DNA of 64,000 nucleotides from Hymenolepis diminuta (taxonomy: Eukaryota; Platyhelminthes; Cestoda; Cyclophyllidea; Hymenolepididae), in the NCBI GenBank assembly GCA_900708905.1, contig CAADRB010000001.1:4169929-4233928 (forward strand), written 5' to 3'. Made by a program: the position numbers and the translations under genes. Shown piece by piece: positions 12,901 through 53,901 of the stretch (the stretch's first letter is position 1; every line of letters starts with the position of its first letter). The notes beneath the pieces are model-generated. The model was not told the origin of the DNA and made no database searches. It worked only from the letters and a program-made list of their open reading frames with translations.

Positions 12901-12906
12901 TTTATT
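12901..12906 (-). terminator. polyadenylation signal of gene A, overlapping its stop codon
   Basis: On the minus strand the last codons read GAT GAA TAA ATT, so AATAAA overlaps the stop codon itself. Gene B ends the same way. Confidence 0.55.
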
Positions 12907-15900
12907 CATCGAGTTTAAAACATTTTTTATCTTCATCTATGACTGCTTCAACACTGTTGTCATTATTAACTAGAAATAAAACATCAAAATATATTAGTCA
13001 ATAAAATTAAACATGGTTTAAAAATATGGAAAAATAAATAAATCTTCTCGAACATACTTGTTAAAATTTTTTTTGGAATTTTAAGTTTTCTTACATATAC
13101 AATATTTTCATCGTGCTTTTCCTCTATAATAAATATTAACAACAAAAGATTTCAAAATGTAAAAAAATTTTTCTAATATTTAAAGTCACTATTATTTTAA
13201 ATTTAATTTGTCCCAAAACTTACTGTACTTTTCCTTCTTGTGTTTCTTTTCTTTCTTTTTGCCTGTAATTATGCAAAATGATATCTTTTTTTTCGCTTCA
13301 ATTATTTGTGATAAAAACATACTATGCAAAAACAAATGTTAAATTAATGACGATAAAAAGGTAAGGAAATAATTCAGCAGCTTAATGCAATCCGTTTTCC
13401 TCACCTTTTTTGGATTCTGCATTTTCACAGACATCCAAATCCTTTATATCAATCGGCTTCTCTGATTCTAAATAGAAAATTGTGCAAATTAAAATGTATG
13501 AATCTGTAAGCAATGTATTTATGGGAGCTATTGACCTAAATAGGTGTATATTCATTTGAAAAATGCACTGATGTTGGACATAGCTAAGTTATTTTACTTT
13601 TGCAGGAATTGATATTAAAGGAGCTCGGTGTATCTCACCCTCTTTATAAGTATCCAGTTTATTGAAACACACTTATTGGAGTTTTTATTATATCAATTAA
13701 AAAGTAAGTGTATAGTACAACTTACCGACACCCGTACGAGTTTTATTTCCGGAATAGCAATTGCTTGCTTTGAAATATATATTTAAAATATATTTATAAA
13801 AGAAGTCCATGGTAATTAACCACAGCTCTTTATTCGCATTTTTATCTGCTTATTGTTCCGTAGTACAACAACTCAAGTCCAAGCTTATTCGATGCCAGAG
13901 GTATTTAAAAAGTTATGAAATGGGGGTAATGATGACATTACCTAAGAAATTTGGTAATCGCCTACTTAAAATGATAGTAACACGGGCTTAATTTTAATAT
14001 ATATAAGTTGCGTTGTTGTTACAAAAAATGGTAAATTGTACAGTAAATACTTATAAAATGGTATTTAATTTTAAATTTAATTTGTTAAACTGAAAGAAAA
14101 GGGCCTTCTATTGAAAGCCAGGATGCTAAATTAAGATAAGACGATGGAAGTTTCTCAAAACTTAAAAATCTCTCAAAATGATCAAATATTTACTTAAAGT
14201 AAATGATCTTTCTTAGCTTTGTTTACTGAATAAAAGCAGCTGGGCTATGTGAATTTGACCGGATATTAAAAAAAATGACGAAATTTTGGTGAATTTATGA
14301 TATGAGAAACCGTCAAGACGTCACAATATTTTACAACGATGATAATTAAGTATTAACCTCTTTATAAAGGATACATCATTATTTTAACATTTAAATAAAT
14401 TTCAAAATGCTCTTTTGTTTTTATAGCATTGTGTTCTCCTTAAAAAATTCTGCTTAAATTCACTACCATTCTTCCATAACGACCACTCCTACTCAGATTT
14501 GACAACATAACCGCAGATTACAGGTGGAAAAAGGAAAAAAATCAAATTACCCTCATTTACTTTTGAAACGCTTGCACACTCATTCTGGATTGGCATTTGG
14601 AAATATAAATAGTGCTGCTGAAGTTTTTCTGGTTCTCGACAATTATTCACCTCCATCTCAACTGAATTCTCAGATTTTGTTTCCACTTGACAAATGAAAG
14701 GATAAAAGGAGTTTAAATCATCTTAGTTAGGAATATTAAATCATGATGTCTAATAAATAAAAGGAGTTTTTCCTTTATTTGAAACTTTTTGGTTTAATTT
14801 ACTTAAATGTGGACCAATTTCATTAATAAACCTTCACCGTTATAAAAATCGCAAATTAAATTATAAATGCTTGCCTTTACAGGCCTGAGGATGGTCGTCA
14901 TAAAATATCTCGCCCTCAATTACATCGTTGTATGACTGATCTGTTAAAGTTTAAAAAAGTTATGAAAGTATTTAAAAAACAAAAAAAATTGTTCTATGAA
15001 GTTTAACTAAGTACTTTCTCATTATATAAAATCTTTAAAAAGTGAACTGAATTGGATTGCAATAAAATTCATACCGTGTTCCACAGTTGCATTTGACAGG
15101 CAATAAGAAAATAATGAAATTGACGAAGGTGGATCATTGTAATCCATACTAATCTCCTCCTCCTGTTCATCTTTGCAGACATCACTTTGTGAATGTGATT
15201 CTATTAACGAATTAAATATGAAAAATCTTAGCTGCGATTCGCTTTATTGATTTATTCGTTTGCTTTAATAAAAACAAACAACTTAAAATTTTTTTCATTG
15301 ATTTATTTCCAAAATGAGTAAAACAGACATTTTAATTTGTTTTAATAAGCTAAATTTCAGTGAAGAAGAAGTATTAATTTGATTCCGTTTGTATTTGATT
15401 GAAAAGGTCATTTACTCAAAATGAACACTCAAATGCTACAAATATTCGATATATCGCTCAAATTTTAGATTTTAAAGAATATTATAAATATATACTACTA
15501 GTTATAAATTTAGTTAAATTATTTTATTTCCTTTATATTTTGAAAAGTAATACAGAAGAAATATACTTACTTTTACAGTCATTGACGTTCATTGGCTCAT
15601 TTTCGATGACTAAAGTAAAATTACCAATGTCTATTTTTCGAGAGTAATTGAAAATTATTGCTCTGAATTTTTAATTAAACTAATCAAATGAAAGAATCAA
15701 CAAAAATTCTGAACAATACAAAACACCTGTTTCTTTTTGACAAGAGTTTTGATCAGAGTAATGACTACAATCAGCTAAAATTTGCAGAAAAAAAGCAAAA
15801 GCCTCAATAATGCCATATTTTTCAAAGATAATGCAAACGAAATTTTACATACTTTGCACCGCTGTGGTGATTAGAGCATTTGGTTTTGGGTTTGGGAGTT

Positions 15901-18900
15901 CTTCGGCTTGAAGATTTAAATTAAAATTTGGATTAATATAAAAGAAAGTAAAGTACTATAAAATATTTCGCCTTTAAATGACAATTAACTATATTCATTA
16001 GTCATGATTTTAAGAAGATTTAGGTAATTGTTTTTAATAGTAAGTCATGGTAACACTAATGAATACATATTATTACTTTGAGTCATAATTGATTTAAGTT
16101 CTTTGTCCAATTTGACCTTCAAATGATTTTCTAAAACAAAATAATACAGAGTGCTTAGGGTATCTGAGAACACTTATAATTTTTTGGTTTAAACTAACCC
16201 GATAATCATAATTGCATTTTTTATATCACAGGTTATCCTGGTAGACACTACTATAACTAATAAAATGAAAAGACACGCTGTAATAGTGTCTATAAAAGCA
16301 AAGCGCAGCAATTTAAATGTTGCGAGAATTTAAAAAAATTCACTAGATCCTTTGTTTGCTAAATTTAAAAAAGATGAATCGGCCGCCACGAGGAAGAGAA
16401 AAGAGCATTGTCAGAGCTCTGCTGACTCACTCACTCGGAACACGTGAGTTTGTAAGAAAAGTGCATGGCGTGATCGATGAAAATCCTGGGAAGTCAATGT
16501 GACATCTTGCCAAAGACTTTCAAATGTCTGAAGGAGCAATAATGAATGCTCTTCATCAAGATCTTGGATACAATTCTCATAAATTATAGGCGAGGTCAGA
16601 TCATGTGGACAAAAACAACTCAAGGGAACGTTTAACGACATGTAAATAGATTGAATCACTCAGAAGAATAGAAGTGTTTTTGGTTTTTCTTCGACAAGGA
16701 AAACTTTCACCAGAATGAAAAAGTCAATCGAAGAAATGATAGACGGGCATATGTGAGCAAACCTCACTAAAGTTCCAATTGTTATGCATACCCAGTAATA
16801 ATGACGGTTTTTGGTGTTGTTAGGAGGTGGGTGAGGGGCATATCATTACTCCTCCGTTAATTTCACAAGGTCTTAGCGTCAATGCAGATGTAACTGCTTA
16901 TGTAGAGACTCTTCAAACCATTACTGTTAAGCTACCTTGGAAAAACAACACAGCCAATTAAGGAAGAAGCCGCTATGTCTTCCAACATGAATCGGCTCAT
17001 GCAACAAAGCTCTCCAAACCCATGATGTGATGGAGGAGAATTTTCATTATCATGTCATACTAAACTTATGGCCGCATCCTAACTCATCAGACCTTAATCC
17101 TTGGGATTATTACATGAGGGGTGGGGTGGGGTGGGTGGAATGTGATTGAAAAGGTAGTTAATAAGCACATCCCTATAACACCAAATCCTCCTCTCTGATT
17201 TAAGCAATAGCGCGAGTAATGGAGGATATGAATAAAGAACACCTAATGAAAGCTTACAGTCAGTCGCTTTGACTCTAATTGAATGGGTAATGGAAGCCGA
17301 AGGAGGATACATCAAATAAAACCTAGATTAATATCATGTTTATTTGTTTTGCCAGAAGAAATTGTAAGTTTCAATCTTTAATAGTTCCATTTCCTGCTTT
17401 CTGAAAGTGTGTAATGTGTTCTCAGATGCCTTTCATAACCGAAGTCTAACAGAAAATACTGAATAATTATTTACCCGAAGTCAACTAGTATCATTAAGTA
17501 TTCAGTAAATTCATCCTTAAAACGTTGCTTTACAAATTAGGAATTTTCTCATTAATCAAAATGATTTTGCTTGACCAAATATTTTCTGGCTAATTATTAT
17601 TTGCTTACCCGCCTCCAAATTGTTCAAAAAACCCTCTGCTAAAGCTCCTGAATCTTAAAATTCAATGGAATAGTTAATAAAAGTCTTCATGAATAGCCAT
17701 AGTTAAAAGAAAAAAATGATCCTCAAACCTTCAACAGATCCGCTAGCGCTTAAATCAGGCATTAGATCTTCAAGTTCGCAAAGGTTTTCTGAAAACAAAT
17801 AAATTCAAATATGAATATTAAAATATTTATTTAGGCTACCATATTCTTTATTATTTAATTTTGATATTATAATTACGTGAATAAAGTTTTCATAAAAATA
17901 TTAAAACTTAAATATCGATATCAGGTTTTTTAATCTGGAAAAGTACCTGTTCTTTTACTCTCTTTAGGCTTCTTCAATATCTCGTAAGCCTTCTTGACGA
18001 TTGTTTTTATCTTTACAGCTTTATTAAAAGTTGATAGGAAAAATTTATCATTTTCCCATTATTTAATGAATTTAATATCCAATGATAAATATTAAATAAA
18101 AATATTGACAAAGACTTACTTTTTACAGTTCTGTCCACCAATTTTGGACCATACTTTTTTCTGTTCTTTGGTTCTTTGAAAGATGGAATTTAAGACATAA
18201 GAAATATCAAAATCGTCAAGTTATCGTCAAAAAATGATTAATTACCCTCAACTCCCCCACTCATATTGTTAAAAGGAAGGTCATCTGTAGTGTAAATAGG
18301 TAATTATTAAGAAGGTATAGGCCACTAGACATAAGCCGTTAACCGGTAACTTATTCGACACAGAACATAATAAGCATTACTTTCTGTTATGAAAGGTCAA
18401 AAGTGAAATCAAAGCCTACCCATTTCGGTTCGTCAGCTTACTGAAAATATTAGTATTTCGCCTCTGTTAACTCCTTTTAAAGTTGTCTTTGCGGAGTATT
18501 TATCTAGGGAGTCACGTGAAAGCAATCTGATTTGATATGATTTAAATCACAATTTGGAATCAGGCATTAATAATACGTTTCAGAGAAATGATCCCGTGAT
18601 GACTTCTGGTCATGCATTGGTGCTTGCAATTGAATAATTTTATGCATAAAAAGAAGTTAATAGCATCACATATATAATATTAACGCAAGTCAAATAACCG
18701 CATCACAACTACTATGGCTCATTCTCATGCATAAGTACAGCTTTAGAAGTCCGCTTTTGTAGTGGCTTAAAGTCTAATTTTTTTTATGGATTTAATTGTA
18801 CATTGTCCCACGTGTATCCATATCGCTTGTATGTTATGTTCTAGCAGGTCAATATGAAGGTTCGTTCATCTCATGATAACATATCATTGTTCACTAAATT

Positions 18901-21900: not shown

Positions 21901-24900
21901 ATTAATAATTATCTGAAATAAAGAACCAAAAATAAGCTTTAATACACCAGGGAAATAAATTAATTTTATGTAGAAAATCATTTAATTATGATATTTGAAT
22001 AATTGAACTGTGAGGAATGTTCAGAAAGTTGTTATATAATGAAATAAAATTTAATTGTTAAATAGTTTTAATTGGATATATTGTAAACCAACTTAATAAT
22101 ATCGATACCGTTGGGTCTGTAGGGTGATTTCGGTGAGAAATATCGAACTGAGGAATAATAGTCTAAGAAAGAGGAAATATTTTAAGGTAGTGATCGAGTT
22201 TCAAGATGGAGTATGTGAAACTAGAAACTATGTATAATTATTAATTATATAATACTTAGCGATTGATTTTTGCCGACCTCTATCACCATGTTTTTATTTA
22301 CAACAAGAATATTAATTTATTTGTTCGCTAAATTAGCTATTTTTTTATCATTTGTACAAAATAATAACTCACTTTATTCAATGTAAAAATTAATAATTAC
22401 CTTCATATCTTTTGGAAGGACGTCGTTGGAATTGTTGACCACTTTGGAAGACCATTGGCTGGCATCGGCTTAGGGGATTACAGGAATCTGTAGTATTTAA
22501 ATATTAAAATATTTTTATTTATTTATTCAAAAAATTCTACAACGCAGTGGAGAACTAATTAGAAACTTGCACGAATTTGGTCTGTAAATCATCTCTTGAT
22601 TCGACCCATAAAGTTGATTTGCAACTACACAATAAACATTGTGATATGAAGGGTAATAAATACATGATATTCGCTTAGTAATGAAATTCAACTTAAATAT
22701 TGATATCAAAAATGTTGTACCAATAAATTTTGTTTTTCAGTAGATATCTTATGATTAATAGTTTAAGATGATGAATAGAATGATTCTTTAGTCATATCGT
22801 ATAAATTTACAGGACTATAATATTATTCAGTGATTTGCAGAGAAAAGAACATGTTAGATAAAACTCAAACAGTGAAAAAAATAAATCATGTTCATCGATG
22901 AAAAATCCTGTTGACAATTTATTGTTAAGTATTCATCAGTTTTGTACATTTGCCAAATGTGCAATTATAATATCGTTATTTTGCATAATTTTGAAGTAAA
23001 GACTACTATTAACTCAAGTGGGTGGTATCGTTGAGTCCTGGCTTTTGCATGCAATTTTGGGAGATTAATCAGGTTACAACAGAACATTACAAATTTGCAA
23101 ATGTACACGTTGAAAATACATACCTCTATGGTTAATCCCGTTCATATTGTTTTGCCCTGGTGACTGACAATTTACTGACGGAACATATCCGACTGAAAGT
23201 TTTTTCATTTTGTACGGTAAATGACAGAATAAATAAACTAAGAACTTGAAGAAAACTAAGTTGGTCATCTAATTACCTCTACTGCTAACCATATCTGGCC
23301 TGTATATGGGCGACTGGAAGTTGCAGTTTGGTGATCCACTTCCAACTTAGGGAAATAATAATACGACAAATTATGATTAAAGAATTTGATAATAAAAAAT
23401 TTTGCGTTGTTTTATAGAAATTCAAAAGTTCCCATATACCATAATTACTCATTTGAGTAGGCCTGTATAGGGGAGTTTGGTAATTAACGGGAGAATAACT
23501 AACTGAAATGAGAAAACACATCTATGAATCAATATGCTTACACCACTTCATCTAATTTTTTGAAATCAAAATATAATGCATATAAAATTAATATAAAAAC
23601 GGGATAATTACTTCTACATTAAAAATTATTAAATAGAAATAAATGGTATCAATTGATTATAATTGAGTGGTAGTAACTAATTGTGACAAAAATATGCAGA
23701 GAAAATAATTACTTCTAATGTATGAAGAACTGGGAACATAATCAGTGCGTTGATGTGAGGAAGATGGTGGATAAAAAACTAATTAAAAATATATGATTTT
23801 TCAGCCAAGTTTTTATAACTTCATGTATTAGTCGAGCAAAATAAAACTCTTACATCTGTATCTATCACCAGAGGGACTGTCGAACTGATACTGATATTTT
23901 TCAGAATATTTATGTCCAACTTATATAAGATATCGAAAAAATGAAAAATTCGATATTTTGAGCAAGAAAAACCAAGAAGAAATCATAAATCCTTACCTTT
24001 GTATTTATGACCATCGTAATCCTTGTTGAAAGATTGATCGTTTATTGGGTGTGAGCAGCTAGCTGATATATTTACACATTCATTTAGAAAAGTATTGTTT
24101 CATGCATTTTGTTTAACATAAATGAATTTAAGTTTCATACGTTTGTACCCCTCTCTAAGGAATGGAGGCACATATAATCTGGGCTGTTCTTCTTCAGCTA
24201 CAATAAAATTGTAGGAGAGCAGCAAATAATCCACTTTAAAATGTTAATTATTCTATCTAATTTTACGAACATTCGAATTAAATATAAATAAAAATGGAAA
24301 AACTTGTTCGTATGGTTTTTTTTCATTTAATAGACAGAAATTGCGGTATTTCATTTACCTTCTTCACCTTTCACAAACTCAGCTTTTTCCACTTCCTTGA
24401 TTTCAGATTCAACTATTTAAAAAATCCTAGAATTAAGCCTTTACAAAGTTGTATGTTTGTGTCATAATATTTACTTCTTTGCTTAAAATTAAGTGAAATG
24501 AGACAATGCTTTGTTGAAGCCAGATAGTTCTAGCTGCAACTATTTACCGCCATTGAAATTTAACTTCTCCGTTGTAGACTCCTTCGTCTTCGCTTCTGAA
24601 GCAATCAAACCATTAAAATGGAAATAAATGTTATAGAATTGGAGTCGGAATTGAAGCCTACCTGCTTCGCTATCATCAGGACAACTTTCATTGGATTTAT
24701 TTGCCTCCTCGTCAACTAAAATATTCAGAAGAAAATTTTTAGATTTACCTTGTTATAAATTAACAGTTGCAGTTACGTGCTCTTGTTACTTCATTTCTAC
24801 AAATATGCTTGCACCAATCTAACTGATTTTATGCCTTGGGAGTACAGTCTTCATTAATTTTTCAAAATGTATTTGATATTTATATAATTTAATGTCCTTT

Positions 24901-27900
24901 TAATTTTAAGTGTGTGTATATTAGTAATTTTATTAATTTTCATAAATTCTAGTTATATTATAAAATTTCTATCTCACCATTTAAAATATCTTACCGCAAA
25001 GTGCAGCCATTTTCTCTGTTATGACTTCTTCTTCCGGTTTTTCTTAAAATATTTAAGACGCTCATCAAAGTCAGGAAAAATTGTTATTTGTGTTACCAAA
25101 AATAAATGTTTCTTGCAATAACTCTGAATGAAAATTCTCATTTATTTTCTTAGTGAAGACATAACTTGGACGATACTTCGGTGTGCTATGAATTGCAACC
25201 AGTAAATATTCATCTTTAGTAGTATTAGAGATTAACTGGATGAATGGACAATTTTTAATTATGAGTGAGACATTGATAGCTGCTTACATTCACTCTCAAG
25301 TTTCAGTATCTAACTCTAAAGCGAACAGTCTAAAAGGATTAATTTTCAATTAAATCAAACGACTACGAATAAAACATATTGCTGTTAACTTTTTCCTTGC
25401 CATGAATGAGTTTTTAAGTAGTCTGTCTTAGTAGCTGTTAAATAATCAATTAGAATAATTAAAACAAGCCAGCAATGTTTCTATTGCAAAAGCCGATGAG
25501 CTTATTTGAGGTCATATGGGGTTATTTGAGGGGATTAATTATCTATAGATTATATTTTTTCAAATATTGTATTAAATATTAAGATTTGCAGTACCTAGAC
25601 AACATTAGAGTTGAAATTAAAGTTGTAATTACAATTTTGGCAGAACTACCTTTGAGAGAAAATTAAATTCATACATGATATTTAGAAAGAAAATTAATTA
25701 ACGTTAAGTGAAACAGACTAACCCTTATCATCATTATTATCAAAGGTTTTAGTTCCTTCTGTTTGTTCTGTAGCAATTGTGAGAAATTTGTTTAGAATCG
25801 TGTATTACAAAGATGGTATTAACTATAGTTAGGGGAAATGCAAAAGCTACCTTCAGATTCTTCGGTTTTTAGAGAAACATTTTCCTCATTCTTGATAATT
25901 TCAGCTGAAATTGAAACAAGAACCAGATACTATTAAAGCTTATTTGCATAAATTAAGTTAAAAATTTAAGGATATTCAATAAAAATCGCGTATTTATCAT
26001 TGAATAAAAGTGAATTTTAAAATTCTTTTGGCAAATTCTACTTTAGTCCTCTTAACTTGGGCTTAACTTATTAAATATTAAATTGATCGAAGAAGTATGC
26101 TTTTTATTTATTTTCCAAGTCTATAGGTTTATTAAATTTATTAAATAAACCAGAAAACCAAAAAATACCAGAAAAAGCAAGAAGAGCTTTTTCATAATGC
26201 TAATTTTTTTCACTTAGATTGCATCAGTTAGCATTTTAATTCATCTTCTTTTATTAGGCAAGTATTTATTTTATTTCAAGATACTTATTTCAGTATTTTT
26301 TTAAATATAAAAAAATACTGTTCCCATTTTTACATTATATTAAACATATTTTATTAAAAATTCATATCTAAAATAAAATTCAGTCAAGTCATATATATGA
26401 ATTTCAATATAAGAGCCTTTGAAGTTTGCAATTTTTAATCCTGAAAAAAATTATTTCTAAATTAATCTTGTTAAAATCAGTATTTTTTCAAATTGAGCAG
26501 ATACCGCATGAGGATTCCAGATATTGATTCTTAAAAGGATTGATTCTATTTGTCTGCAATTTTGTCTCATCAGGTTTGATAGTGGATGACATGCATTCGA
26601 GTTTACAAACATCAAAAGAGCCATTAGTTGACATGAGCCAAAACCTGCACTCAGTTGTATTTTCCCATGATAACGGAGAACTGGGGAAATGATAAGAGCT
26701 AACAGAAATTCAACATAACGCAGCTCAAGGCAGTTTGTGTTTACCTGCCAACTAATTTTCGCCCTACACTTCTTTATTTTCTTCATGAATATATAAATTG
26801 ACTTGATGTCATTTACTTATCTTCAGAATATTTCTCATTAAATTGCAATTATGCATCTCTTAATTTTGCTTACCGTCTTTTGTCTTTGTTTCAACATCTT
26901 GAATTTGGTCAGAGCAATTGTTATCAACTAAAACAGAGGCGAAATATGATAATTTTCAACGTAACTCCTAAAACTATAAATGAATCAAATATTTAGGTAT
27001 TTATTCACGTTTGAAACGACTTTTAACACTATGTATTTTTTCAGATTAGTGATAATTAATTTTTTGACATAATTGCAACAATTTTATATCAGAATGTACA
27101 AAATTTATACACAAATGGGAAAAAAATTTACCTTTTTTAGTTGATTCATTTGATTCACTTTCTATGGATTTAGTTTCAACTGATTCCTCTTTTTCTGTGC
27201 AAAATAATTGCTGATTAGATTTTATAAATTTTTTTGAAATCATTTTATATAGTTTTTGAATATATAAGATCTTCAACGCATACAGAGACCAAAAGTTAAT
27301 GCTTATTTCTGTTTGCCGATAAAATATAAAAGTTACCTTTACTGAACCTCTCCCGTTCATATCGGTAGGTTTTTCCTGGCCAACGACTATCTATTTTAAT
27401 ACATTCGCAATGTTACCTAATTTTTTGAATTAAATTAAAACATTCAGATCTCAATGAGCTCTGCTCACCTTCAACCGATATTATTTGAGAAGAAAAGTGT
27501 GGCCACTTTCCTAATCAAGTAATAGGCAACATAATTTTAATATAATTTCAATTAAATAATCTCTACTTACCTACAATTCCTTTGCGGTACGGCCTGCGAT
27601 TTATCCAAAGCTGCCTCTCTATGTAAAATATAATTTAGATAACTCCATCTTTGACTTGATTGAATTGGAATTTCCACAAATTGAGTTCACTTTAGTCAAG
27701 TTTACTACTTACCTAGGAAGGCTAAATGTACAAAAATGATGGCATATTTAACAAAATTTGCTTCATTTATTAAATAGAGATGACAGTTTGCAGCAATTGC
27801 ATTTAATAACGGACTTAAAAATTTATTCATTCCGCTGAATTGCAAATTTTTGCGAAAAAAGCGATTTACTTAAATGGTGTAGTATAAAATTAACATAAAC

Positions 27901-28485
27901 TTCTTTTCTAACTTATAAAATTATGCCTATTTGTAGGCGGTTTATTTTTTAATTAATTGCATAATACTTATAAATGAAAATGCATTGTTATACCCAGGTC
28001 TAGCATCTCTCATTTTATTTCATTAATGATCAGGCGATTATGAATTAAGCTAAAGATACCATCATATATGGCAGTATTTTCGAACATTTCAAAATATCAC
28101 GAAACGTCAAAAATAATCCCTTCCTACCTTTCTTTGGTCTTATCCTTTTTTCACAGACTCTTTCCTCTTGTGCGCGAGTTTTTGAAACTAAATTGTTATT
28201 ATAGTTTAAACTTTAGAATATATTACAAATAGTATGCATTTTAAAAATATACATATTTGTATCTTACGCTCAAACCTTTCTTTAACCAACTTTGCTGAAA
28301 ACTTTCTCCTTTCGGGAAATTTGAAAGATTTACCTAAACGGGTATAACAGACAAATATGCAAAATCGATTACATTTTGCTAAACAAAACCTCTTCAAGAC
28401 TTGAGGCGATATTCGCTGCATAAAATTGTAATATGCTAATTATAAATTAGGAAATAAACTTACCAAACTCGATAGGTTTTATCAT
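12902..28485 (-). CDS. gene A: 39-exon symmetric micro-exon gene, unknown function
   Basis: Not recognised by homology. Exons, 5' to 3' (high to low): 28485-28464, 28378-28334, 28294-28268, 28187-28128, 27721-27713, 27618-27571, 27510-27469, 27390-27337, 27194-27132, 26927-26874, 25904-25851, 25767-25723, 25042-24995, 24715-24662, 24595-24548, 24412-24359, 24197-24141, 24062-23997, 23919-23854, 23778-23713, 23502-23449, 23345-23277, 23192-23124, 22487-22401, 18284-18246, 18173-18120, 18018-17947, 17788-17729, 17638-17609, 15774-15727, 15609-15571, 15200-15075, 14940-14875, 14685-14551, 13767-13726, 13467-13405, 13262-13224, 13123-13058, 12969-12902. Joined, they give 735 residues without a stop, from MIKPIEF to KLDE. 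All 37 internal exons are multiples of three (9-135 nt) and every intron is phase 1. Composition changes by block: basic (residues 1-102), Glu/Lys/Ser-rich (103-242), Tyr/Pro/Ser-rich with duplicated exons (262-420), mixed and acidic (421-657), Lys-rich (658-713). There is no clear signal peptide. Expression and exact borders need transcript data; architecture is the firm part. Confidence 0.75.
13058..13467 (-). CDS. gene A, Lys-rich 3' exons
   Basis: Exons 13467-13405, 13262-13224 and 13123-13058 encode residues about 658-713. The middle exon is almost pure Lys/Glu (GKKKEKKHKKEKY), and the last ends VRKLKIPKKILT. Such a run could be a nuclear or nucleic-acid-binding tail, or merely low-complexity filler. 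The last of the three uses the donor at 13057 (ACAA|gtatgt) rather than an in-exon GTAAGA, because only that keeps phase 1 into the terminal exon. Confidence 0.6.
14551..15200 (-). CDS. gene A, the two longest exons and a GC-AG intron
   Basis: Exons 15200-15075 (126 nt) and 14685-14551 (135 nt) are the longest of the gene. Both are acidic, with clustered Glu and scattered Cys. Between them, exon 14940-14875 (66 nt) ends TGTAAAG|gcaagc, a GC donor with otherwise perfect consensus, which is the form GC-AG introns usually take. No GT donor gives an open, in-phase product there. Confidence 0.6.
16378..17320 (+). mobile_element. Tc1/mariner-superfamily transposase remnant
   Basis: Translation of the plus strand, across many stops and frameshifts, follows a Tc1/mariner transposase along its length. 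N-terminal HTH-like part: VHGVIDENPGKSM and HLAKDFQMSEGAIMNALHQD near 16470-16570. Catalytic region: GLSVNADVTAYVETL near 16880, then a decayed stretch with FQHESAHA where the second catalytic Asp should be. C-terminal part ends in an EAEGGYI-like sequence near 17300. It belongs to a different lineage from the mariner at 11.7 kb and is much older, as most codons near the active site are disrupted. It sits inside an intron of gene A. Confidence 0.75.
17118..17135 (+). repeat. G-quadruplex-capable (GGGGT)n run
   Basis: Four consecutive G runs (4, 4, 4 and 3 G) separated by single T. The run replaces the short G-rich stretch expected in the transposase remnant at the point where the family has a YVWGVVE-like motif, so it looks like a slippage expansion inside the dead transposon. 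Confidence 0.75.
18285..22400. other. gene A 4.1-kb intron
   Basis: This is the largest intron of gene A, between exons 22487-22401 and 18284-18246. It is AT-rich with no recognisable exon. Two similar short segments (around CTATCCARTATTGGT) occur near 18980 and 19035. I see no transposon protein in it. Confidence 0.5.
23124..24062 (-). CDS. gene A, duplicated Tyr/Pro/Ser exon block
   Basis: Six successive exons of 54-69 nt (24062-23997, 23919-23854, 23778-23713, 23502-23449, 23345-23277, 23192-23124; residues about 262-391) encode related peptides. Clearest: TPLYRPTQM in one exon and SPIYRPDMVSS in the next, then VPSVNCQSPGQNN. Three consecutive exons are exactly 66 nt. This supports growth of the gene by tandem exon duplication, which phase-1 symmetric exons allow without breaking the frame. 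Confidence 0.65.
24359..27194 (-). CDS. gene A, Glu/Lys/Ser-rich exon block
   Basis: Eight exons (27194-27132, 26927-26874, 25904-25851, 25767-25723, 25042-24995, 24715-24662, 24595-24548, 24412-24359), mostly 45-54 nt, encode residues about 103-242. Typical pieces are ESVETKSIESESNES, VDEEANKSNESCPDD and EVEKAEFVKGEE. The block is acidic, hydrophilic, probably unstructured, with an isolated Cys in some exons. Similar size and composition again point to repeated exon duplication followed by divergence. Confidence 0.65.
27713..27721 (-). CDS. gene A, 9-nt micro-exon
   Basis: Minus-strand CCTTCCTAG lies between a good acceptor (ttgtacatttag) and a perfect donor (gtaagt). It adds three residues and keeps phase 1. 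At 9 nt it is far below the size normal splicing recognises easily and within the range typical of micro-exons. Confidence 0.6.
   Translation of the reverse strand, partial: PS
28268..28378 (-). CDS. gene A, exons 2 and 3 around a 39-nt intron
   Basis: Exons 28378-28334 (45 nt; contains CNRFCIFVCYTRL) and 28294-28268 (27 nt) are separated by a 39-nt intron (gtaaat...tttcag). That is the same length as the single TRAPPC4 intron, suggesting a minimum intron size in this genome of about this value. Confidence 0.55.
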
Positions 28486-28535
28486 AGTAGTTAGAGTAGA
28501 TAAAATATGTTGTGCACTAAAATCCAAATCCAAGC

Positions 28536-28542: not shown

Positions 28543-30326
28543 CTAAAATTTCACCCATCTCATGACTATTCACACCGTCGATTTGCCGGTTAAGCACCCG
28601 ATAACAAGATGCTCAGAGAATAGTACATCAGCAGTCAAAATTATGCCTCTTTGAATTCTGAAATATTATTTTTTTATAGTTACTAGTGATTTACAAATGC
28701 GAACAAGCAAATCCAATATTTATTGCAATAAACTCTGTTTTAATTAGAAAATATAATACCATTACTCCTAGGTACATTGACAATAGTGTCTATCTTTGTA
28801 ATGAATGTTTCTGGTCGTGTCTTGCGTTGTGTTGATTTGAATTCCAATCGAACTACTCCCGAGGGTCAACTTATACTATTCCAATGCATTCATCCTCTTT
28901 TCCAATTTCTCTTAAAGAGTGATCATGAAAGAAAAAATGTTGGACAAAAAAAATCCTAATGATTTAAGACATTTTAACTATCAGAAAATGTTGGTAATGT
29001 AATTTAGAAAACCACACCTTAATAAAGATGTTCGAGAGACCTATTTTATATTTAACGTTGACAAATGTTTAAATCACATATGCTTCTTTCATTGTGCATG
29101 GTTTTCATGTGCGCAACATCACAAGATATTAAAAAAATCATCTATTGTAGACGAGTATTGCTTTACTTTACATATTTACAAAGTTCAATTTAATGCTTCA
29201 TAAGCTTATCATTTAAAGATCGTTACAACAAAGAGAATAAGACAAAATACAGGGTTTTAAAATACTTGTCCACTGAATGGGAGGTCTAAAAATGTAGAAA
29301 TTACCTCGCGTTCATTTCGTTGCATTTTCCTGCTGGTGCGATTTGTATTCCAGCTCTTGTTTTAACAGTTTTTCACCCTGAAGATCGCATAACCAGGTGC
29401 ATATTTCTCTGGGGACAATATTCGGTCATTTTCAATCTTACAGAAGGGCCTTGCATTTGCAATTGTCATAAAAAAGCATACAGTTAGTAGAAAATTCGTA
29501 TCAAAGTTTTCTTTGCTTTTCCATCTATAATTATTTGGTGTATCCAACATGTAGACTTTTTAGACCAGCAGACTTCACGACCATTGGAAGAAAAATGGTT
29601 AAATCTTAGATGGTGTTGAAATCCATATCCGAAGCTTAAATTTAAACATAAATTGAAAATTTTCTTGTCAGTTTGTTTTTCTCTAAGGTATATGAAATCT
29701 GTGATAGAGATGACTTTAAATCTGCTTAAGATAAAATTTCAAACTTCGAAGAAATTTTCAGCAAACTTTTATTAGAATTTATAGATTAAAATAATTACAG
29801 ACTATTCATTTTATTAGTTTCACGCCATTGCATTATTTAATGAAATCTTAATTTAATCATAAGGAATAAAAACATTAAAGTACTTTATTTAAATTTTAAT
29901 TACTCGTGAAAATTTATCTACCATTGTCAGGTGTAGGATCATCTGCTTAAATATTTACCATTTAATATAAAAGAGGATGGTTTCCTCGGTCAAATACCTT
30001 AGGTTTAATTTATCAATGAACAAAAATTACGCAACTGGTAGGTTTGATATTATAATAAAATGTATTATAATTTATTCTTCATTATTTTCATTTATTTGAA
30101 TTACTTTTCTTTCGAAAACCCATTGCTATTGTTAAATTAAATGCACATTAAAAAGGAAATGGATAATGTAACCAAGTAAATACCATGAAACTCGTAAAAC
30201 AGGTTTTGCCTAGGATTGCTGAGACATAACTTATGTCATATAAGCATTATAAGTAACACTTGTAGAGCAAGAAGATACATTAGGAAAACATTATAAGAGG
30301 AAAATAAGAAATTCAAAAGTATTAAA
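28543..30326. promoter_or_regulatory. divergent intergenic region of genes A and B
   Basis: The two large micro-exon genes are transcribed away from each other, with start codons 1.84 kb apart. TATA-like sites for B occur at 30239-30244, 30247-30253 and 30292-30297. Short open frames at 28777-28959 (+) and 29362-29550 (-) are not recognised and are not called. Co-regulation from this region is an inference. Confidence 0.45.
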
Positions 30327-30474
30327 ATGCTTGATAAGTCAAAATATTTTGGCATTTTCTTAATATTTATTCCGATTTTGTACATCGACTTTTTAATTCA
30401 TTCAGAAGTTACAAAATTCAACAGCGACAGCAAAATTGCACCAGGCAGGGATTTTAAGAAAGTAAAATCCTCAG
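30327..30474 (+). CDS. gene B first exon: hydrophobic leader
   Basis: This exon of 49 codons plus one base begins MLDKSKYFGIFL and holds an uninterrupted hydrophobic run of about 18 residues near the N terminus, followed by a polar Lys/Ser-rich end. It fits a signal peptide or a type II signal anchor. The donor is CTCAG|gtagga. This is the only one of the three family members with such a leader. Confidence 0.65.
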
Positions 30475-36400: not shown

Positions 36401-39400
36401 CTCATCATCCTCATCCTCATCATCCTCGTCCTCATCATCCTCATCCTCATCTTCATCGTCTTCTTCCTCATCCTCATCAACCTCATCATCGTCGTCTTCA
36501 TCATCATCTTCTTCAGAGGATTTATCAAAATCCCCCAACAGTAAGTAGTTTTAATTTCTCACAAATCTGCAATGCAGTGTGCTCTATTTATTAATCCTCA
36601 CGAAAAGCAGAATGGACTTTTACTAGTTTCGATCAAGAGCATGCACCTGAATAAAGCAAACCGCAAGATGATCTTAAAAACATGGCACAGGTATTTGGAG
36701 TTAGGCTTAAGAAGGTAATGAAGACAGAGCATCATGATTCCCACTTTATTCAAATTTTGGAAGCATTAACTCGTCCAATTATCTCGTAAATGCAGTAATA
36801 TTTATCCCCACAATGTTCGTATTTCATAATGTGATCATCAAGTTCGTGGGTGAGATGATGTTCAAATCATTCCAGGCATAATATAGAGTGGCTGATTCAA
36901 GCAGCTGAAAACGGGTTGATGATAGTAATAAGTTAATGTTAGAAAATATGCTGCGGGATGATTAATCTGTCAAGCGATTCCTATTCAGTGTATTGCATTA
37001 GTTATGAAAATTATTATTTTAAATATGGATGCATTTTGATGAATAGAAAGTTTTCAACAAGAAGAGGAAGAGAGAAAAGAGAGACAATTTAATTTTTTAA
37101 TACATTATTTGTTTTCTGTTTTATATTTCTTCATCATTATCTATTTATGTGATTTCTTTTAATATTGTGGCATCTTTTTTAAATTGAAAATCATTGGTAC
37201 CGATTTTTTCCCGAAATAACCTTAACGAATCTACCAAATCTGGGATCCCCATACTTACAGGAAGGCGGCTAGGCTCTAATAGCTAGGAATAGACACACCG
37301 CCTTTTTCCAGGATTGAGTGGACGCTCAGACTAAAAACAATGAAAATGCAAGACAGATAAAGACGTGAGAATATAGAGGAAATAAAGCATCCTTGCAGAG
37401 TTAATGTGTGATGAGTGTAACAAACGCAAAGGAGCAGAATCATAATGGACAGAGAGTAAAAAGCCGTAATTGATGTACAAATGCACCTAAGATACACGTA
37501 TTGAAAGGAACTGATTCGATTCAATTTGATCAAGAATATGAATATAATAATTGTTTCAATATTGTCTTAATCGACCGGGCGGAATGTACATATGGTTTAA
37601 AATTAGGTTCAACAAGACATTTGAGAAATAAATAAATGTTAATCGTTTTCGTATGCTCTGTAAGCATAAAATGAGATCTTCAGTAGAAATGTATGAAAAT
37701 ATAATTTGCTTAACCTTCAGAAAAAGAAAGCTTAAAGTTTTAATTCTTTTGTTTAAGTGGGTATTAAAACTTTTCCTCTTTTTCCTATTCTTATTCTTAA
37801 ATTAGAGAAGGAAAGAATGACCATCACAGATAGCGAAATGATGGTCCAAGATTCTACTGATTGCGAAATTAGATTTGCTAGGTTTTCCTTAAACCAAATG
37901 CTAATAATGAGTATCAAACAAATCGTTTTTAGAGCGCAAATTTGCTGGATCTAATGGCGTCGTAATTAGAACCGTCAATAAACACGGTAATTTGGGTAAG
38001 TTTAATTATTTCTGTATTATTTATAATAGGGCATTATTAATTACCACTTCTTCCGTGAGCGATTTTAAAATAATATCTCTTCTTCAGTTGAATACCAGTC
38101 AAGAATACCATATGAAACAATTTTCGAATCTCTTCCAGGCATGTTTAAAATGAACTCATTTTCCTATTTTATTATTCTAAAATCTGTTTAATTTTTCTCA
38201 ATTTTTTACAATTAGCCGAATGCCGAGAAGGACTAAATGGAAGAGAAGCACTAAGTAAGGAATATATATGATACTAAAATTTGATGAAAGATACAAATAA
38301 ATCCTCCCTTAAAGTGTATCTCGTTTATTTTAGTTGAAATTCACCCGATCATGCAAAACAATTATTGTTATCGGGCAAAACCACGTAATAATTTACAGTT
38401 TTGTGATTTTCTAAGTCATACTCTATTGGAGGAATTTAAATGTATATTATTATTAGATTTCTTATTTTAGATATGTTTCAACCATGTGTGGCTTGTGAAC
38501 CAATTTACAATGCTGTTCCGGGTAAAATTTATGAGTAGTATATTTAAAGTCGATGTCCGGCTTAAATTTTGCTATTTTGAAAAAAAGTAAAAATTGTTTT
38601 TTTAAGAGAAATTTGTTTCAATGAGAAGAGAAGGCACATATAAGACTCTAATGTATTCTTTAAAAAAACTCCGGTGCAAAAGTTGAATAATTTAATACTC
38701 TTATATGTTGAACTTTTTTAGGAATTTGTCCACCAAAACGATGTAACTACAGCTGCAATACTCCCAAATCCAGAGAAATTAGTAAGGAGATGGCTAAAGT
38801 GCTTTGTTCCAAAATAATGTAATAATTTAACAGACATCTCATCAACTAATTGACAGATAGAGGTCAATCTGTAGCCGAATCTACTGAAAAACTTAATTCC
38901 AGAGTATGCGAGTAGACTTGGAGTCAATCCGTTGAATAGGAATTATCTGTTTGAAACCTAAAGCTAGAATTTGTGGCCCTAATCCATGTCTGTCAACTTA
39001 TTATTAGAGATAGAAAAGAAGCTCCTGTAGTGTAAAATGTCAGGTCGGTCGTTTGATAGGACTGATTTCGCTTCAAAATTTTTATAATGGCTAATTAAAA
39101 ATTAATAAACACATTTTTTACTACATCTTAAATCAGTGAAAGGTATTATATGCAACAATGCATCAGTTAATGTATGGACAACTTGAAGCTACGTTACTCA
39201 TCATGCTCTCTTAAAAATTTTTATATTATTTCAAACAGAGGACAAGCGTCAATTTATAAAGGAGGTCATAGTCGTTAATTACGACACTTCCGACGCACAA
39301 TCTTCCTGCTCGTCTGATTCTTCCTCCTCAACGTCAGGTATAGACTACCATGTTTAAATTAATTATTAAATGTTCCATTATAATTTGATGAAAATCCACT

Positions 39401-41791
39401 GCGTCCTTGCTGTCAAAATTAAAAGATATTCATTTGGCGTTAAAATTGTATTTATGCTATTTCAATGTACCACAGAAGTCATTTTATCGTAAAAAGCGTA
39501 ACGTGTAAACAACCGGTCAATTTTAATAGTTTTTCTTGAAGGGAATTCCCAACCTACCTCAATTTTCTTAGTAATTTTTGTAACTTTTCGAGAGTAATTA
39601 TTATTGTACTCGTAGATTTTGGATTTAAATTACGGTGTCTTTATTTTTAAATTTAGCAATCACTTCTTAGGTTTAAAAACTTGAAGAATTGGGAGGGATG
39701 ACGAAGGATTCAATTCATTTGGTTTCACCTCATTTATATTACTCATCTAAATTTGAGAGATGATATTTCTAATAATTCCCTAGTATATCTTTTCAAACCA
39801 AACTTTCTTTTCGAGTTTGCAAAATTTGGCAAGTGAAAATGAAAACTTCGCGGCAGATCGAATGGGATTAAATGAAATTTTAAATCTTAGACACAGATTC
39901 ATATTTCTAATTTATATATCTGTAGAAATGGCGGAAATGGAATAAAAATGTCTCAACAGAAGAAAGTGTTTTCAAGCTTGACTAAAATAATATCAATACT
40001 TAGATTATCGCTTCGAAGTATTAATGGATGTTAGTTCTGTTTGTATTGAATTAGGGAGACAAATACCGTAAATTATGAGGATAAAAAAAATAATATAAGA
40101 AATCAGTTTAAATGAATATTAAATGCACTATCACTGATCCACAGTTGATAGTTACCAATGAAACGAGGAATCATTCACATTGTGGAATCTTTCAGCTCGG
40201 AATCTTCTTTATTTTCCCCGTCATTCACGTCTGACCCATCAGATAGTAGAAAAATATTTTCGTGTATCATAAAATCTCGAAATTTATTGTTAGAGCTCTA
40301 TTTTTTATTTCAGATTTTTGCGATTGGCGCCGTTCTAAAGTACCGCCCAAGAGTAAGCCAAACAAATTGTTTTATTTATTAGAAAATGCGAATTCTTTTT
40401 GTAATTTGAAACAAAAATTAATTCTCCATGAAAATTTATTTAACGTTCATGTTATTTAAAGATTTCAACGCTTGAGTCGCAACAAAAATAGTATTAAATG
40501 TACAAATATTATAGAAGGTGGTCAATCCAAATACAGTGCTGTATATCTCAGGAAAGTCAAGGTTAAGTGGGATGTCATTCATAGTACGCTTATCGTTCTT
40601 ACTAAACACAATCCCACATCTAATTCTGAGTCTTCTAAATATCAGCTGGAAGAAATCAGAGCAAACACGTTGAAAGTGGCAAAATTAAGTATGTAATATG
40701 TGCGTTGAATAAGGAGTAATAGGGATGTAAATTCCTGTTTTAGGAAATAAATAACAATTTTTCTTGTTGTTTGATGGAAATTTATGATTAAAGAACACCA
40801 ATAAGTAACTTTTTATTAGAAAAACAAGCTACAGTGTCTCAAATTTCATTATGAAACCAGTTGGTTATGACCTTACCGTTGGCCTGCCAATATACGCCAT
40901 CACCCTTGTGCTCTGGCAATAGGTCCTTAAGTTTAACAGTCTACTGATAAATCAGCATTTACAAAGCTTGAGAATTTAAACAGGACTATTTCTCCGTTAT
41001 CTTTTATATGATTAATGATTGTTCCACCCATAGTGGTATTGAAATAATATTTTTAGATAAGCACAACAAGAAAAGTGATGCTGCCTTGTCCAAGAAGACC
41101 GAGGAAAAGAAACAACGAGGTATATTGCTTGTTCATTTGCTTTCACTTTCTTTATTTCTACAATTTAATGCACATAACTTTAATTCTGACAGACTGTAGA
41201 CGCAAAAAATCTGTCGAAGTGGAGAGCAAAATCACTGGAGTCGTCACACCTCTAAAACTTGAGGAATGGAATCGTCAAGGTAAATTAAATATTAGTAATG
41301 GAGGAATCCAGTTTATAATTTGTCAGAGTGTGGCGTAAGTAAATCGCCAAGCTATAATCTCTCCCGTTTTTACGAACTTCACTTTAACAAGAAAGCATGG
41401 TGAAAGAAGCAGTGGCGTACCATTAATATTTACAGATATCATTTTTATGATCTTGTAACCAATATACTGAAATGAAACCACATGGCAGAGTAAAGCTTGC
41501 AATACGGGTAACGATAACGGAGAAATATCAGTATATGGCTTATAGCCGAGGGATGAAACATACGCTGTACAAAAAATAAGTGGACAAAAAGCAGAATTTG
41601 ATCAGTAAACAAATCAAGGAAGCAGTTTGCAGAGATTTAAAAAGAGAAAATCTTTTCTTTATTTGTTTGCACATTATTACCTATTGCGGTTAATGCAGTA
41701 CAGCAGAGTACATTCCATCATTTATTTTATAAATTAAACACTTTGCTATTTTATAGGTTGCAACGACGGGAAATGTAACAAGGAAGAATAA
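30327..41791 (+). CDS. gene B: 35-exon symmetric micro-exon gene, Cys- and Ser-rich product
   Basis: Not recognised by homology. Exons: 30327-30474, 30569-30649, 30777-30842, 30920-30976, 31045-31098, 31222-31281, 31997-32047, 32121-32171, 32299-32358, 32620-32661, 32740-32790, 32967-33008, 34040-34111, 34352-34405, 34559-34612, 34778-34831, 35052-35087, 35392-35475, 35827-35916, 35982-36035, 36175-36540, 37806-37910, 37933-37995, 38088-38138, 38216-38254, 38334-38384, 38471-38521, 38722-38781, 39239-39337, 40196-40261, 40314-40352, 40515-40688, 41057-41119, 41193-41279, 41757-41791. The joined frame has 869 codons and ends GCNDGKCNKEE-stop. All 33 internal exons are multiples of three, all introns phase 1. 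The N terminus has a hydrophobic stretch (YFGIFLIFIPILYIDFLI, residues 7-24), a signal peptide or anchor. Then follow a Lys-rich part, Cys-Gln-Pro exons, repeated 54-nt exons, a long poly-Ser exon and further Cys exons. Exons at 35392, 37806, 40196 and 40515 are the least certain; splice choice there leaned on frame. Confidence 0.72.
31222..32171 (+). CDS. gene B, Cys-Gln-Pro repeat exons
   Basis: Exons 31222-31281, 31997-32047 and 32121-32171 encode VVCQPVCQPVCQEVC, then HCQPYICCLPVCMPTC, then CIPCQPRCEQ. The CxxxC and CxxC spacing is regular, and the last two exons are each 51 nt. Very similar peptides occur on 51-nt exons of gene C (52721-52771, 52963-53013), which is the main sequence evidence that B and C are paralogues. 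The Cys pairs could form disulphides in a secreted product or bind metal. Confidence 0.72.
34352..36035 (+). CDS. gene B, duplicated 54-nt exons
   Basis: Four exons of exactly 54 nt (34352-34405, 34559-34612, 34778-34831, 35982-36035) begin with the same TTGAATGC-type sequence and encode variants of VEC-Q--PNG-I-CEEAT: AERRQSEPHESISFEEAT, VECSQTKPNGPITCEGTL, VECHQEEPNGSIKCEEAT, VECYQAEENGPIVCEYTA. Similarity extends to the acceptor, so these are whole-exon duplications. The exon at 38216-38254 (AECREGLNGREAL) is a shorter relative. Confidence 0.8.
36175..36540 (+). CDS. gene B, poly-serine exon
   Basis: This 366-nt (122-codon) exon, bounded by cttttag and ACA|gtaagt, is the only long exon in the gene. 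It starts EGQNQTNSGTIVKS, which echoes the start of the 35827-35916 exon (ENNQTTSGTITI), then becomes roughly two-thirds Ser from TCA/TCT/TCC codons and ends SEDLSKSPN. The complementary frame reads as Asp/Glu and another frame as His/Pro; both are shadows. Poly-Ser of this kind suggests a heavily O-glycosylated or phosphorylated linker. Confidence 0.75.
36541..37805. other. gene B intron, no further feature
   Basis: Large AT-rich intron after the poly-Ser exon. No acceptor/donor pair with an open phase-1 product was found inside. Confidence 0.4.
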
Positions 41792-41792
41792 A
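41787..41792 (+). terminator. polyadenylation signal of gene B, overlapping its stop codon
   Basis: The end reads GAA GAA TAA AAT, so AATAAA covers the stop codon, exactly as in gene A. A second AATAAATAAA lies near 41845. Confidence 0.5.
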
Positions 41793-41799
41793 ATATAAT

Positions 41800-51053: not shown

Positions 51054-51063
51054 TATATAAAAG
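51054..51063 (+). promoter_or_regulatory. TATA box of gene C
   Basis: TATATAAAAG lies 61 nt before the ATG at 51115, implying a 5' leader of roughly 30 nt. It is the best TATA match seen in the window. Confidence 0.7.
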
Positions 51064-51114
51064 GCCTATTATACCTAGAGACACCAGCTAGAATTGAAAA
51101 CAACTAAAAAAAAA

Positions 51115-53901
51115 ATGACCACAAACTTTGAGTGCAGTAAGTTTTAAATTTTGATTACATACGATGCTTTACGTAAAAAAAAATTTAAAAATTTACATTT
51201 AGCAAATACCGAAATACAATCTAGCCACAGCTGGGAATCACTCAGCGAAAATAATGGTAACTACAATATTATATTAAAATTCCTATTTGATGAAAATTAA
51301 TGCGATAAATAATATATAATAACACGTTCATACACTCTAAATTAATTTTGCACTTTTGCAGAATTCGTTGAAGTTGTAAATTGCGATGCCAGCGTTGACA
51401 GTAATGACAACTGCTGCGAAAGAAGTAAATTTATTATTACAGATTAAAAACCAGTTGGAATAGTTTATTGCCCTGTTTAAATAGCCGAAACCGGAAGAAT
51501 GAATACAGACTTCTCATGAAGAATATGTATTTTTTGTAGGACCCTGTGAGACTGAATGGACAGAGTGTTGTAACAACGGAAGAAATCCAGGAATCATCAT
51601 TATTCGTGAGATATTTTTTATACTTAACACAGATATTCAAGCTATTATCTATTGTAAATTACCTGATGTCCTATACAAATTATAAATTTGAATCTTCTAA
51701 TAATGCAGGGGATAAGGAAAAACATGAAAAGAATAAGAAATGTGCACTTGAATTGATAAAAGAGGATTTCAAGTGTAGGTCATCAGTTGTAATCAAATTT
51801 GAGAATTTTTGTTTGACAACCATATTCAATATTATAATCAAAGAAACTTTGTAAATCAACAATATGTATTTCAATTAAATTGTAGCCAGAACAACCTCGA
51901 CAAAAGCTAACCGTATATACGAAAGACGGATGCCGAAAAGACGTAGGCTGTTTGAATTAATTGAATATGGGTTTAAAATTTTAAAATATGCTTTTACATT
52001 TAAAGATTAAATAAACATTGTTTTTCCGGCTTCAGAGAAGAACATTGAAATTTTAATCGAACAAGAACAACCCAGATGCAAGCCGCGTAAGTGCTAAAAA
52101 TATTCTTTCTATAAAAACGCATGGTTTTTACTTTACTACGCTCATGTCCTTCAGAAAACAGAATGTTACATAATTATGTCTACGACAAAAGCCCTTATTA
52201 ATACAACCGCCACAATCACTCTAATAATACACTCTTCCTCGGCAAATTCAGTTATGCACCCAATTGTTTGCCAACGGGTGTGCAAGAATTATAAAGATAA
52301 ACGTCTTAAATGATTTAATTCGTGTCTGCTGCTTATTGCCTACCACTCTCTACTTAATTAAGTTATAACAATTTTAGTACAGCGTCGTCCGCGCTTACAA
52401 TACCAAAATGTTTTTGCCTGTGCAAAGTAATAATATCTATGAGATAATTTATGCGTTATACCTCCTGAATTCCCCAACGATCACTGAAGCCACCGTAAAA
52501 GGTTGAGAGACTATTGTTAGAGAGTTCTAATTACTCCCCATATGAGTGAGGATATGTTTTTTCAATAATATTTAGTTCAATATATTATATTAAAAGCAAT
52601 AATTGTCTTGTCAGCTTGTCTTCTAAGCCAACTTTACTTTTTGACAGATTGAAAATTGTGTTCTCACTTTTTTAACTTACCCATACAAATACGTCAGACC
52701 ACATTTTCTATTATCCTTAGCTGAACGCCAGTGCTGTATAGTGTGCCAGCCAGTTTGTCAACAAACTCAAGGTATCATAATCTTCATTCCTAACTAAAAT
52801 TTCTATACACAGCTCCTCTATTTAATAAACGATATTCTGTTTTTTAAATCAGTCCGAACCATTTATCAGCCGCAATGCGAACAAGGTAAAATAGCCTTAT
52901 TCTTCACGAAATTTAAATAAATATATTCATTCTCTTTAATCAAGAAATTTTTTATTAATCAGTGATCTGTAACGAATGCCCCAGGATACAAACAGTGTGT
53001 CAGCCAGCTCAAGGTGAAAGGAGAATTTTTATTGAATCTTTCTATTTTATAAATAATAAGAACAATAATATTGACTCATGATCATTTTAAATTTAGTCGA
53101 ATGCAGACAAAATCTGAGCTGTGGAACAATTTGTACTAATGGTAATACAGAAAACGTGGTTAATTTAATTCTTTTTGATATCACTAGGTCTAATAAAAAA
53201 TATTCCAAAAGTCCTTCTTTATAATTTACATTAAAGAGGGGTGATAATTAGTTTTTAGTCTAAACACTGAATGCGAATATTAAATTGAATGTCTATTGTT
53301 TTTCTATTTTTCACTTTGCAGACCGTTTTATCAGATGCCCCATAGAGAGATGCCCGAGACCAAATACCAGTATCTGTTTGGACTTTGATGATATGAAACC
53401 AAGATGTAATAGAGGATATAACAATACTTAATATGCACATTAATTAACCATTTGTTTTAAAATACATAACGATTAAACATATTTTAGGCACTCGAAGATA
53501 CATAGGCAGAACAAGAAGACCGGTCGATAGGATTATGATTCTAGATAGGAAGTGCAGAGGTAATGAAGATACGAACACCCATTTACCCTAAAAACCTTTT
53601 GTAACATTATCAACAAATTATTCACAAAATATTTATTCCATATTGAAGGACGTGGACAGATATTAGATTGTCAAAATCCATGCAATAGGACGCCTGTTTA
53701 TATGACGCTAAAATGCAAGGAAAAGAGGCGTAATAGCAACTATATTATTTAAATTTCATGTCAAAAATTTTTAAATAACTTTTAAAAAGATTTCCATATC
53801 AATTTTGGCCAATATTTTGAATTAAATATTGCCATTTTTTCCCAGGCCCCTGCTTCTGCAGAAGATTTAAGCCTTTCAGAAGATGCCATTGCTGTTGTTA
53901 A
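51115..53901 (+). CDS. gene C: symmetric micro-exon gene, Cys-rich product
   Basis: Not recognised by homology. Exons: 51115-51136, 51203-51256, 51362-51424, 51540-51605, 51709-51774, 51886-51942, 52036-52086, 52721-52771, 52853-52885, 52963-53013, 53097-53141, 53322-53405, 53488-53559, 53649-53729, 53846-53901, giving 283 residues. An additional 51-nt exon may begin near 52250 (VCQRVCKN, weak donor gtctta). All internal exons are 33-84 nt, multiples of three, phase 1. The first coding exon is 22 nt, as in gene A. The product starts MTTNFEC without a signal peptide. It has an acidic N-terminal part, a Lys/Arg-rich middle, then Cys motifs (CCIVCQPVCQQTQ, CNECPRIQTVCQPAQ, VECRQNLSCGTICTN, CPIERCPRP), and ends with a basic Cys cluster (RPCFCRRFKPFRRCHCCC). 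The Cys-Gln-Pro exons match those of gene B in sequence and length. A poly(A) signal candidate is AATAAA at 54179-54184. Confidence 0.78.
52721..53141 (+). CDS. gene C, Cys-Gln-Pro repeat exons
   Basis: Exons 52721-52771, 52853-52885, 52963-53013 and 53097-53141 carry VCQPVCQQTQ, IYQPQCEQ, TVCQPAQ and VECRQNLSCGTICTN. Compare gene B: VCQPVCQ, CQPRCEQ and VECSQT. The shared peptide vocabulary together with shared exon length (51 nt) and phase supports common descent of B and C. Confidence 0.72.

Follow-up and report, generated by a model that had tools for sequence, protein, structure and literature searches.

Micro-exon gene cluster in the tapeworm Hymenolepis diminuta: predicted symmetric-exon architecture and a possible intracellular role

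Micro-exon genes (MEGs) of flatworms are defined by their structure, and 52 have been counted in Hymenolepis microstoma (Olson et al. 2020, PMC7653826). Ten of these lie in one 430-kb region and have in common an N-terminal motif, which is read here as leader-like. The MEGs of Schistosoma mansoni comprise 10-20 exons of up to 81 bp, mostly 15 bp, and the products of schistosome MEGs are described as all bearing a signal peptide (PMC10526429, PMC4350168, PMC5825161). Very small exons are also found in aphids: almost all internal exons of bicycle genes start at codon position 2, and megacycle genes contain more than 100 micro-exons and have grown by internal duplication (Stern and Han 2022, PMC9168663). 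The present analysis concerns a window of 64,000 nucleotides of Hymenolepis diminuta DNA (contig CAADRB010000001.1, positions 4,169,929 to 4,233,928 of the forward strand, numbered below from its first letter) on the longest scaffold of the public genome (assembly 170.6 Mb, 203 contigs). It contains the left part of a cluster of genes built from many short symmetric exons. The exon architecture, the tandem duplication of single exons in gene B, the paralogy of genes B, C and D and the head-to-head starts of the A/B and D/E pairs are seen directly in the DNA. We consider it probable that five to seven related micro-exon-type genes make up this cluster of about 79 kb and can be spliced variably; with less confidence, their products would be mostly disordered intracellular scaffolds or structural proteins.

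The initial annotation of the window had recognised three genes, A, B and C. All three stand, as an incomplete inventory: a scan of the 60 kb to the right of the window extends the cluster to about 12.9-92.2 kb in window coordinates, adding gene D, a paralogue of B and C, and a large A-like locus, E/F. No micro-exon gene of this type was found in the 10 kb to the left of the window or in window positions 1-12000. The members are as follows, with entries in phase 1 (the intron interrupts a codon behind its first base) counted in self-trained models:

12902..18423, minus strand: A2, the 3' block of gene A, 22 predicted exons, 375 aa, 19/21 entries in phase 1
21902..28485, minus strand: A1, the 5' block of gene A, 25 predicted exons, 461 aa, 23/24 entries in phase 1
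30016..41791, plus strand: gene B, 32 predicted exons, 711 aa, 31/31 entries in phase 1
51115..54131, plus strand: gene C, B-like, 15 predicted exons, 273 aa, 14/14 entries in phase 1, 3' end uncertain
68795 to about 64430, minus strand: gene D, predicted, 3' end uncertain
from 70792 or 70897 to 79903, plus strand: gene E, predicted, start model-dependent
83738 to 92154, plus strand: gene F, predicted

Gene A, annotated initially as a single gene, appears here as two blocks that may represent one gene or two. A1 has a first coding exon of 22 nt (28464-28485) and a stop at 21902, with AATAAA 36 nt further on; A2 ends in a YVRKLKIPK module with AATAAA 29 nt past its stop, its start exon is doubtful, and it could continue A1. 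When A1 and A2, or E and F, were forced into single genes, the long gaps were filled largely with out-of-phase exons judged to be spurious. In the gap between A1 and A2, a gene on the plus strand was weakly supported and was rejected; an open 54-codon reading frame with a signal-peptide-like start lies there (19536-19700, plus strand) and could be a small secreted gene or a chance occurrence. An AATAAA follows the predicted stop within 60 nt in six of the seven blocks.

Exon chains were predicted with a purpose-written gene finder that left exon length and phase unconstrained. Splice motifs were generic, codon usage was taken from 18 kinase hits and one TRAPPC4 exon, the minimum exon was 9 nt, and the serine run of gene B was neutral in codon scoring; controls were run with identical settings. 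Default runs mainly gave models of neighbouring genes and transposons. With the generic model, 59 of the 69 exon entries in A, B and C were in phase 1 (28/34, 23/26 and 8/9, respectively), and after self-training 87 of 90 (42/45, 31/31 and 14/14); over the five regions A, B, C, D and EF the figures were 105/123 generic and 163/175 trained. Because self-training is partly circular, the weight is borne by the generic figures and by a test independent of the gene finder. This test collected, with generic motifs, acceptor/donor pairs 27-75 nt apart that enclosed a multiple of three nucleotides and exactly one open frame. Entry phases 0/1/2 were 0/30/4 for the 34 sense-strand pairs (regions A, B, C, D and EF), 1/2/2 for the five antisense pairs (regions A, B, D and EF), and 1/2/0 on the plus strand of two outside stretches.

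Chains of this kind might be an artefact of splice-site fitting in AT-rich DNA, as the circularity of self-training, the use of frame in choosing splice sites for the initial annotation, and a false gene called by the generic model antisense to a SETD2-like gene would suggest. However, neither model yielded a gene of at least five exons from the opposite strands of the five cluster regions, or from 60 dinucleotide shuffles (per model, 15 of region A and 15 of region B, the latter without its serine run). The same code applied to the ordinary SETD2-like gene itself gave 2/14 phase-1 entries with the generic model and 1/10 with the trained one. Together with the 30 of 34 phase-1 pairs in the independent test and the match of a public protein to B exons, these controls make an artefact very improbable. 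The phase-1 symmetric micro-exon architecture proposed initially for A, B and C is thus borne out. The trained models hold 86 internal exons (A1 23, A2 20, B 30, C 13), where the earlier count was about 83; 80/86 are multiples of three, and 67/86 are in addition shorter than 70 nt.

Public annotation is known for 13 exons of B, the remaining exons being predictions. The protein concerned, P0027 (232 aa), is their exact translation. The features of gene B considered below are:

30016..33028, plus strand: part of B annotated as P0027, 13 exons, H. diminuta, unnamed product
32121-32171 and 32740-32790, plus strand: annotated B exons missed by the model, adding 34 aa
30777..31098, plus strand: B/C/D family module, LVKEDF / TKTTxTxxxRxYEKKxPR and next exon
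34352, 34559, 34778 and 35982 (34352..36035), plus strand: tandemly duplicated 54-nt exons of B, ECxQxxPNGPIxCEEAT type
35827..36540, plus strand: two B exons whose starts correspond by eye, EENNQTTSGT / EGQNQTNSGT

P0027 starts at the same ATG as the unforced B model; ten of its exons are identical to those of that model, the thirteenth has the same acceptor, and the two that the model missed are 51 nt each, symmetric and in phase 1. The H. diminuta annotation was made with RNA-seq-aided tools (PMC6890685). The stop of P0027 arises from read-through past the donor at 33008, with no AATAAA within the following 150 nt; for these reasons P0027 is probably a truncated form of B. This agrees with gene D, in which B-like early and late modules lie within one model. 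Even with the two additional exons, B differs in length from the 869 codons proposed initially, as does C, previously given 283 codons ending at 53901.

Duplication is apparent both within and between genes. In addition to its tandem 54-nt exons, B contains the exon pair with matching starts, the second member of which (36175-36540) holds the serine run, which fixes its frame. B, C and D have in common one module, LVKEDF / TKTTxTxxxRxYEKKxPR, with a conserved exon junction at the slash, followed by CQPVC units; their similarities have E-values of 6e-8 to 1e-3 in a comparison among seven sequences. In the same comparison A2 and F share the C-terminal YVRKLKIPK-like module (E 0.006). Apparent weak versions of this module were also seen by eye in B and D (YLRKVK, FLKKVK). 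This pattern, with A and B, and likewise D and E, starting head to head, suggests that a divergent pair was duplicated, with C as an extra B-type copy. Fourteen paralogous exon pairs were compared; in 11 of the 12 that could be scored the nonsynonymous proportion of differences (pN) was lower than the synonymous one (pS), which fits coding exons in these frames. When pieces of B, D, C and F were searched against the H. diminuta genome, each recovered its own locus, and the only other match was at E 6.4; C and D were missed from B, and B from C or D. Comparison of the regions upstream of A1, B, C and D gave no convincing match.

The same data could be accommodated by structural proteins, such as those of the tegument, sperm or egg envelope, whose genes are spliced constitutively; exon symmetry would then be a by-product of duplication and no system of variation would exist. 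The tandem duplicate exons of B are what such an origin would leave, and the hydrophilic, cysteine-rich or charged composition and the low pN relative to pS are in keeping with structural products. A single phase is nevertheless common to nearly all exons, beyond those that were duplicated. We regard this explanation as a serious contender that is nonetheless rather unlikely.

The rule of Olson et al. 2020 (PMC7653826) identifies as MEGs those genes with at least 7 exons, at least half of them shorter than 70 nt and a multiple of three, with four or more in a run. This rule covers each of the seven predicted blocks, of which four lie in the window: A1 (20/25), A2 (13/22), B (24/32), C (10/15), E (21/27), F (21/37) and, at the borderline, D (12/24). 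The likeness to flatworm MEGs noted from the letters alone is therefore upheld, the more so as the DNA is from a tapeworm. The MEGs of H. microstoma belong to the same genus, have many short multiple-of-three exons in runs of at least 4, and include relatives clustered on one chromosome; the ten clustered members differ from A1, B, C and D in their N-terminal motif. Schistosome MEGs share the short symmetric exons and the clustered copies. In contrast, the H. diminuta blocks have a median internal exon of 52-60 nt, 15-37 exons each and products of 273-738 aa, and the signal peptide of the schistosome products was not seen on A1, B, C and D. The likeness to aphid bicycle and megacycle genes also stands, since exons start at codon position 2 in both and are very small. 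The aphid genes are insect genes with a secretion signal, again not seen on A1, B, C and D; compared by architecture and not by sequence, the two are taken as convergent.

The initial annotation had considered genes with so many exons in a local cluster to be undescribed. This was too strong in view of the published Hymenolepis MEG cluster and the giant aphid micro-exon genes. Giant size, a single phase and clustering are none of them new alone; what looks new is that symmetric exons in very large number and divergent gene pairs in a cluster occur together with the lack of a visible signal peptide. The term 'micro-exon' is not used in the main text of the paper on the H. diminuta genome (PMC6890685). 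No account of this locus was found in the literature searched, which did not include the MEG table of H. microstoma. Orthologues of these genes may be listed in that table or in the first report of tapeworm MEGs. A search for the H. microstoma MEG motif gave no match, an outcome that carries no weight as evidence.

The N-termini bear on the nature of the products. Those of A1, B, C and D, the trusted starts (the starts of A2, E and F are uncertain), are hydrophilic and devoid of a hydrophobic leader as judged by hydropathy, not by a dedicated signal-peptide predictor, and in-frame stops lie 9-60 nt upstream of each ATG. The unforced models of all four begin with a 22-nt exon. As proof of a gene start this feature was set aside as weak, such sites occurring once per 7.3 kb per strand; E has one, and there is none upstream of A2 or F. 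These products could still be ordinary secreted tapeworm MEG proteins, with a signal-peptide first exon further upstream, release towards the host and variation by exon skipping. The architecture rule and the genus are those of published MEGs, the genes are clustered with cysteine-rich products, and in A1, B, C and D an additional exon could splice in at AG dinucleotides that lie past the upstream stop and before the ATG. Against this, the 22-nt exon opens all four unforced models, the RNA-seq-aided annotation of P0027 places the start at the same B ATG, and the upstream stops are close. Secretion by this route seems improbable, and the initial description of the proteins as effector-like finds no support, as a signal peptide of the kind described on all schistosome MEG products was not seen here.

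Cysteine makes up 10.3% of C, 6.9% of D and 3.9% of B, and charged residues about 30% or more of A1, A2, E and F. In a charge-hydropathy plot six of the seven blocks fall on the disordered side and D on the folded side. Predicted A2, E and F contain LC8-type QT motifs (AVQTD, KSTQT, AQTEN, KETQT), with related QT cores in A2 and F. The classical motif of LC8 (dynein light chain), KxTQT, is present once each in E and F, with 0.10 expected and at least two in 0.2% of 2000 shuffles; since the two proteins may be homologous in this segment, it is treated simply as a lead. Pfam gave nothing above the cut-off for six proteins (A1, A2, P0027, C, D and F), and a profile search of PDB gave one match, at E 0.95, judged to be chance. 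Two low-complexity matches of whole B to proteins with bacterial-type domains were discarded, serine words having crowded the candidates; a profile of the parts of B, C and D without the serine run, in a search that needs shared 5-residue words, matched P0027 alone.

A COX1 search gave no match, and the organism was placed with a TRAPPC4 gene:

6191..6908, plus strand: TRAPPC4 gene, used for organism placement

Its protein shares 89% identity with the Hymenolepis microstoma protein, 82% with those of Hydatigera and Taenia solium, and 57% with that of Schistosoma mansoni. To the right of F, apparent transposon pieces precede the SETD2-like gene at 115.5-121.5 kb. Transposon-like relics were seen by eye within gene A (16370-17300, plus strand) and between B and C (47000-49800, minus strand); schistosome MEG regions have also been reported as rich in transposable elements. 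A 300-nt direct repeat with 98% identity (8586-8885 and 10614-10913) appears longer by eye, and near it lies a fragment named by eye as mariner-like transposase (11777-12136, minus strand; no Pfam hit). Elsewhere in the genome (contig C177, 57508-57987), a reverse-transcriptase match falls within an open frame reported as 19,846 codons, an odd length that is perhaps due to a tandem array or an assembly effect. An Rfam scan of the window gave no match.

The reading we favour, that of variable intracellular scaffolds or structural proteins, may be set out as follows. A symmetric phase-1 exon is a cassette, the duplication or omission of which keeps the frame. The genes would have grown through duplication of exons and of whole genes, and variable splicing, any subset of cassettes being in frame, could give rise to many protein variants. 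The products, with less confidence, would be soluble, mostly disordered and intracellular, the B, C and D proteins being cysteine-rich and those of A, E and F charged with dynein-light-chain-like QT motifs. Their role could be that of multivalent scaffold or structural proteins of a tapeworm-specific cell layer, and not of classically secreted effectors. The preference for intracellular scaffolds over secreted effectors, which is held with modest confidence, follows from the export signal not having been seen.

Several observations weigh on the other side. The exon chains are predicted from DNA, and the intracellular placement is a deduction. Gene-finder penalties were loosened by hand after default runs that saw just 8 B exons, and the false gene antisense to SETD2 (5/13 entries in phase 1) scored 15.0 with the generic model, above D (13.4) and C (0.9). 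D is weaker in phase (18/23 entries trained, 9/15 generic) and its stop is not followed by AATAAA, a signal present in 31% of random 156-nt windows. The end of P0027 at 33028 might mean that B is two genes. The start of E differs between models, and one version is mildly hydrophobic. DNA identity between paralogous exons is 56-75%, close to that of random comparisons, for which the 95th percentile is 70%. In one of the 12 scored pairs pN is greater than pS, and the pN/pS evidence is mild because protein similarity guided the choice of pairs and two of them may not be in register.

A broader and more tentative proposal, to which we attach a low probability, is that MEG design is not tied to secretion. 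Tapeworms would possess giant phase-1 micro-exon genes of a second class, with intracellular products and a layout of duplicated head-to-head pairs. Their cassette exons would permit a very wide combinatorial range of disordered scaffolds, each pair having a cysteine-rich B-type and an LC8-binding A-type partner. The case of P0027, which represents 13 of about 34 B exons, suggests that such genes are cut short in public annotation, so that their number in tapeworms may be underestimated. If transcripts confirm the predicted exon chains, the locus would uncouple micro-exon architecture from host-facing secretion in flatworms, and would offer a laboratory tapeworm in which to ask whether symmetric micro-exons serve to generate protein variants or arise as a by-product when exons are duplicated.

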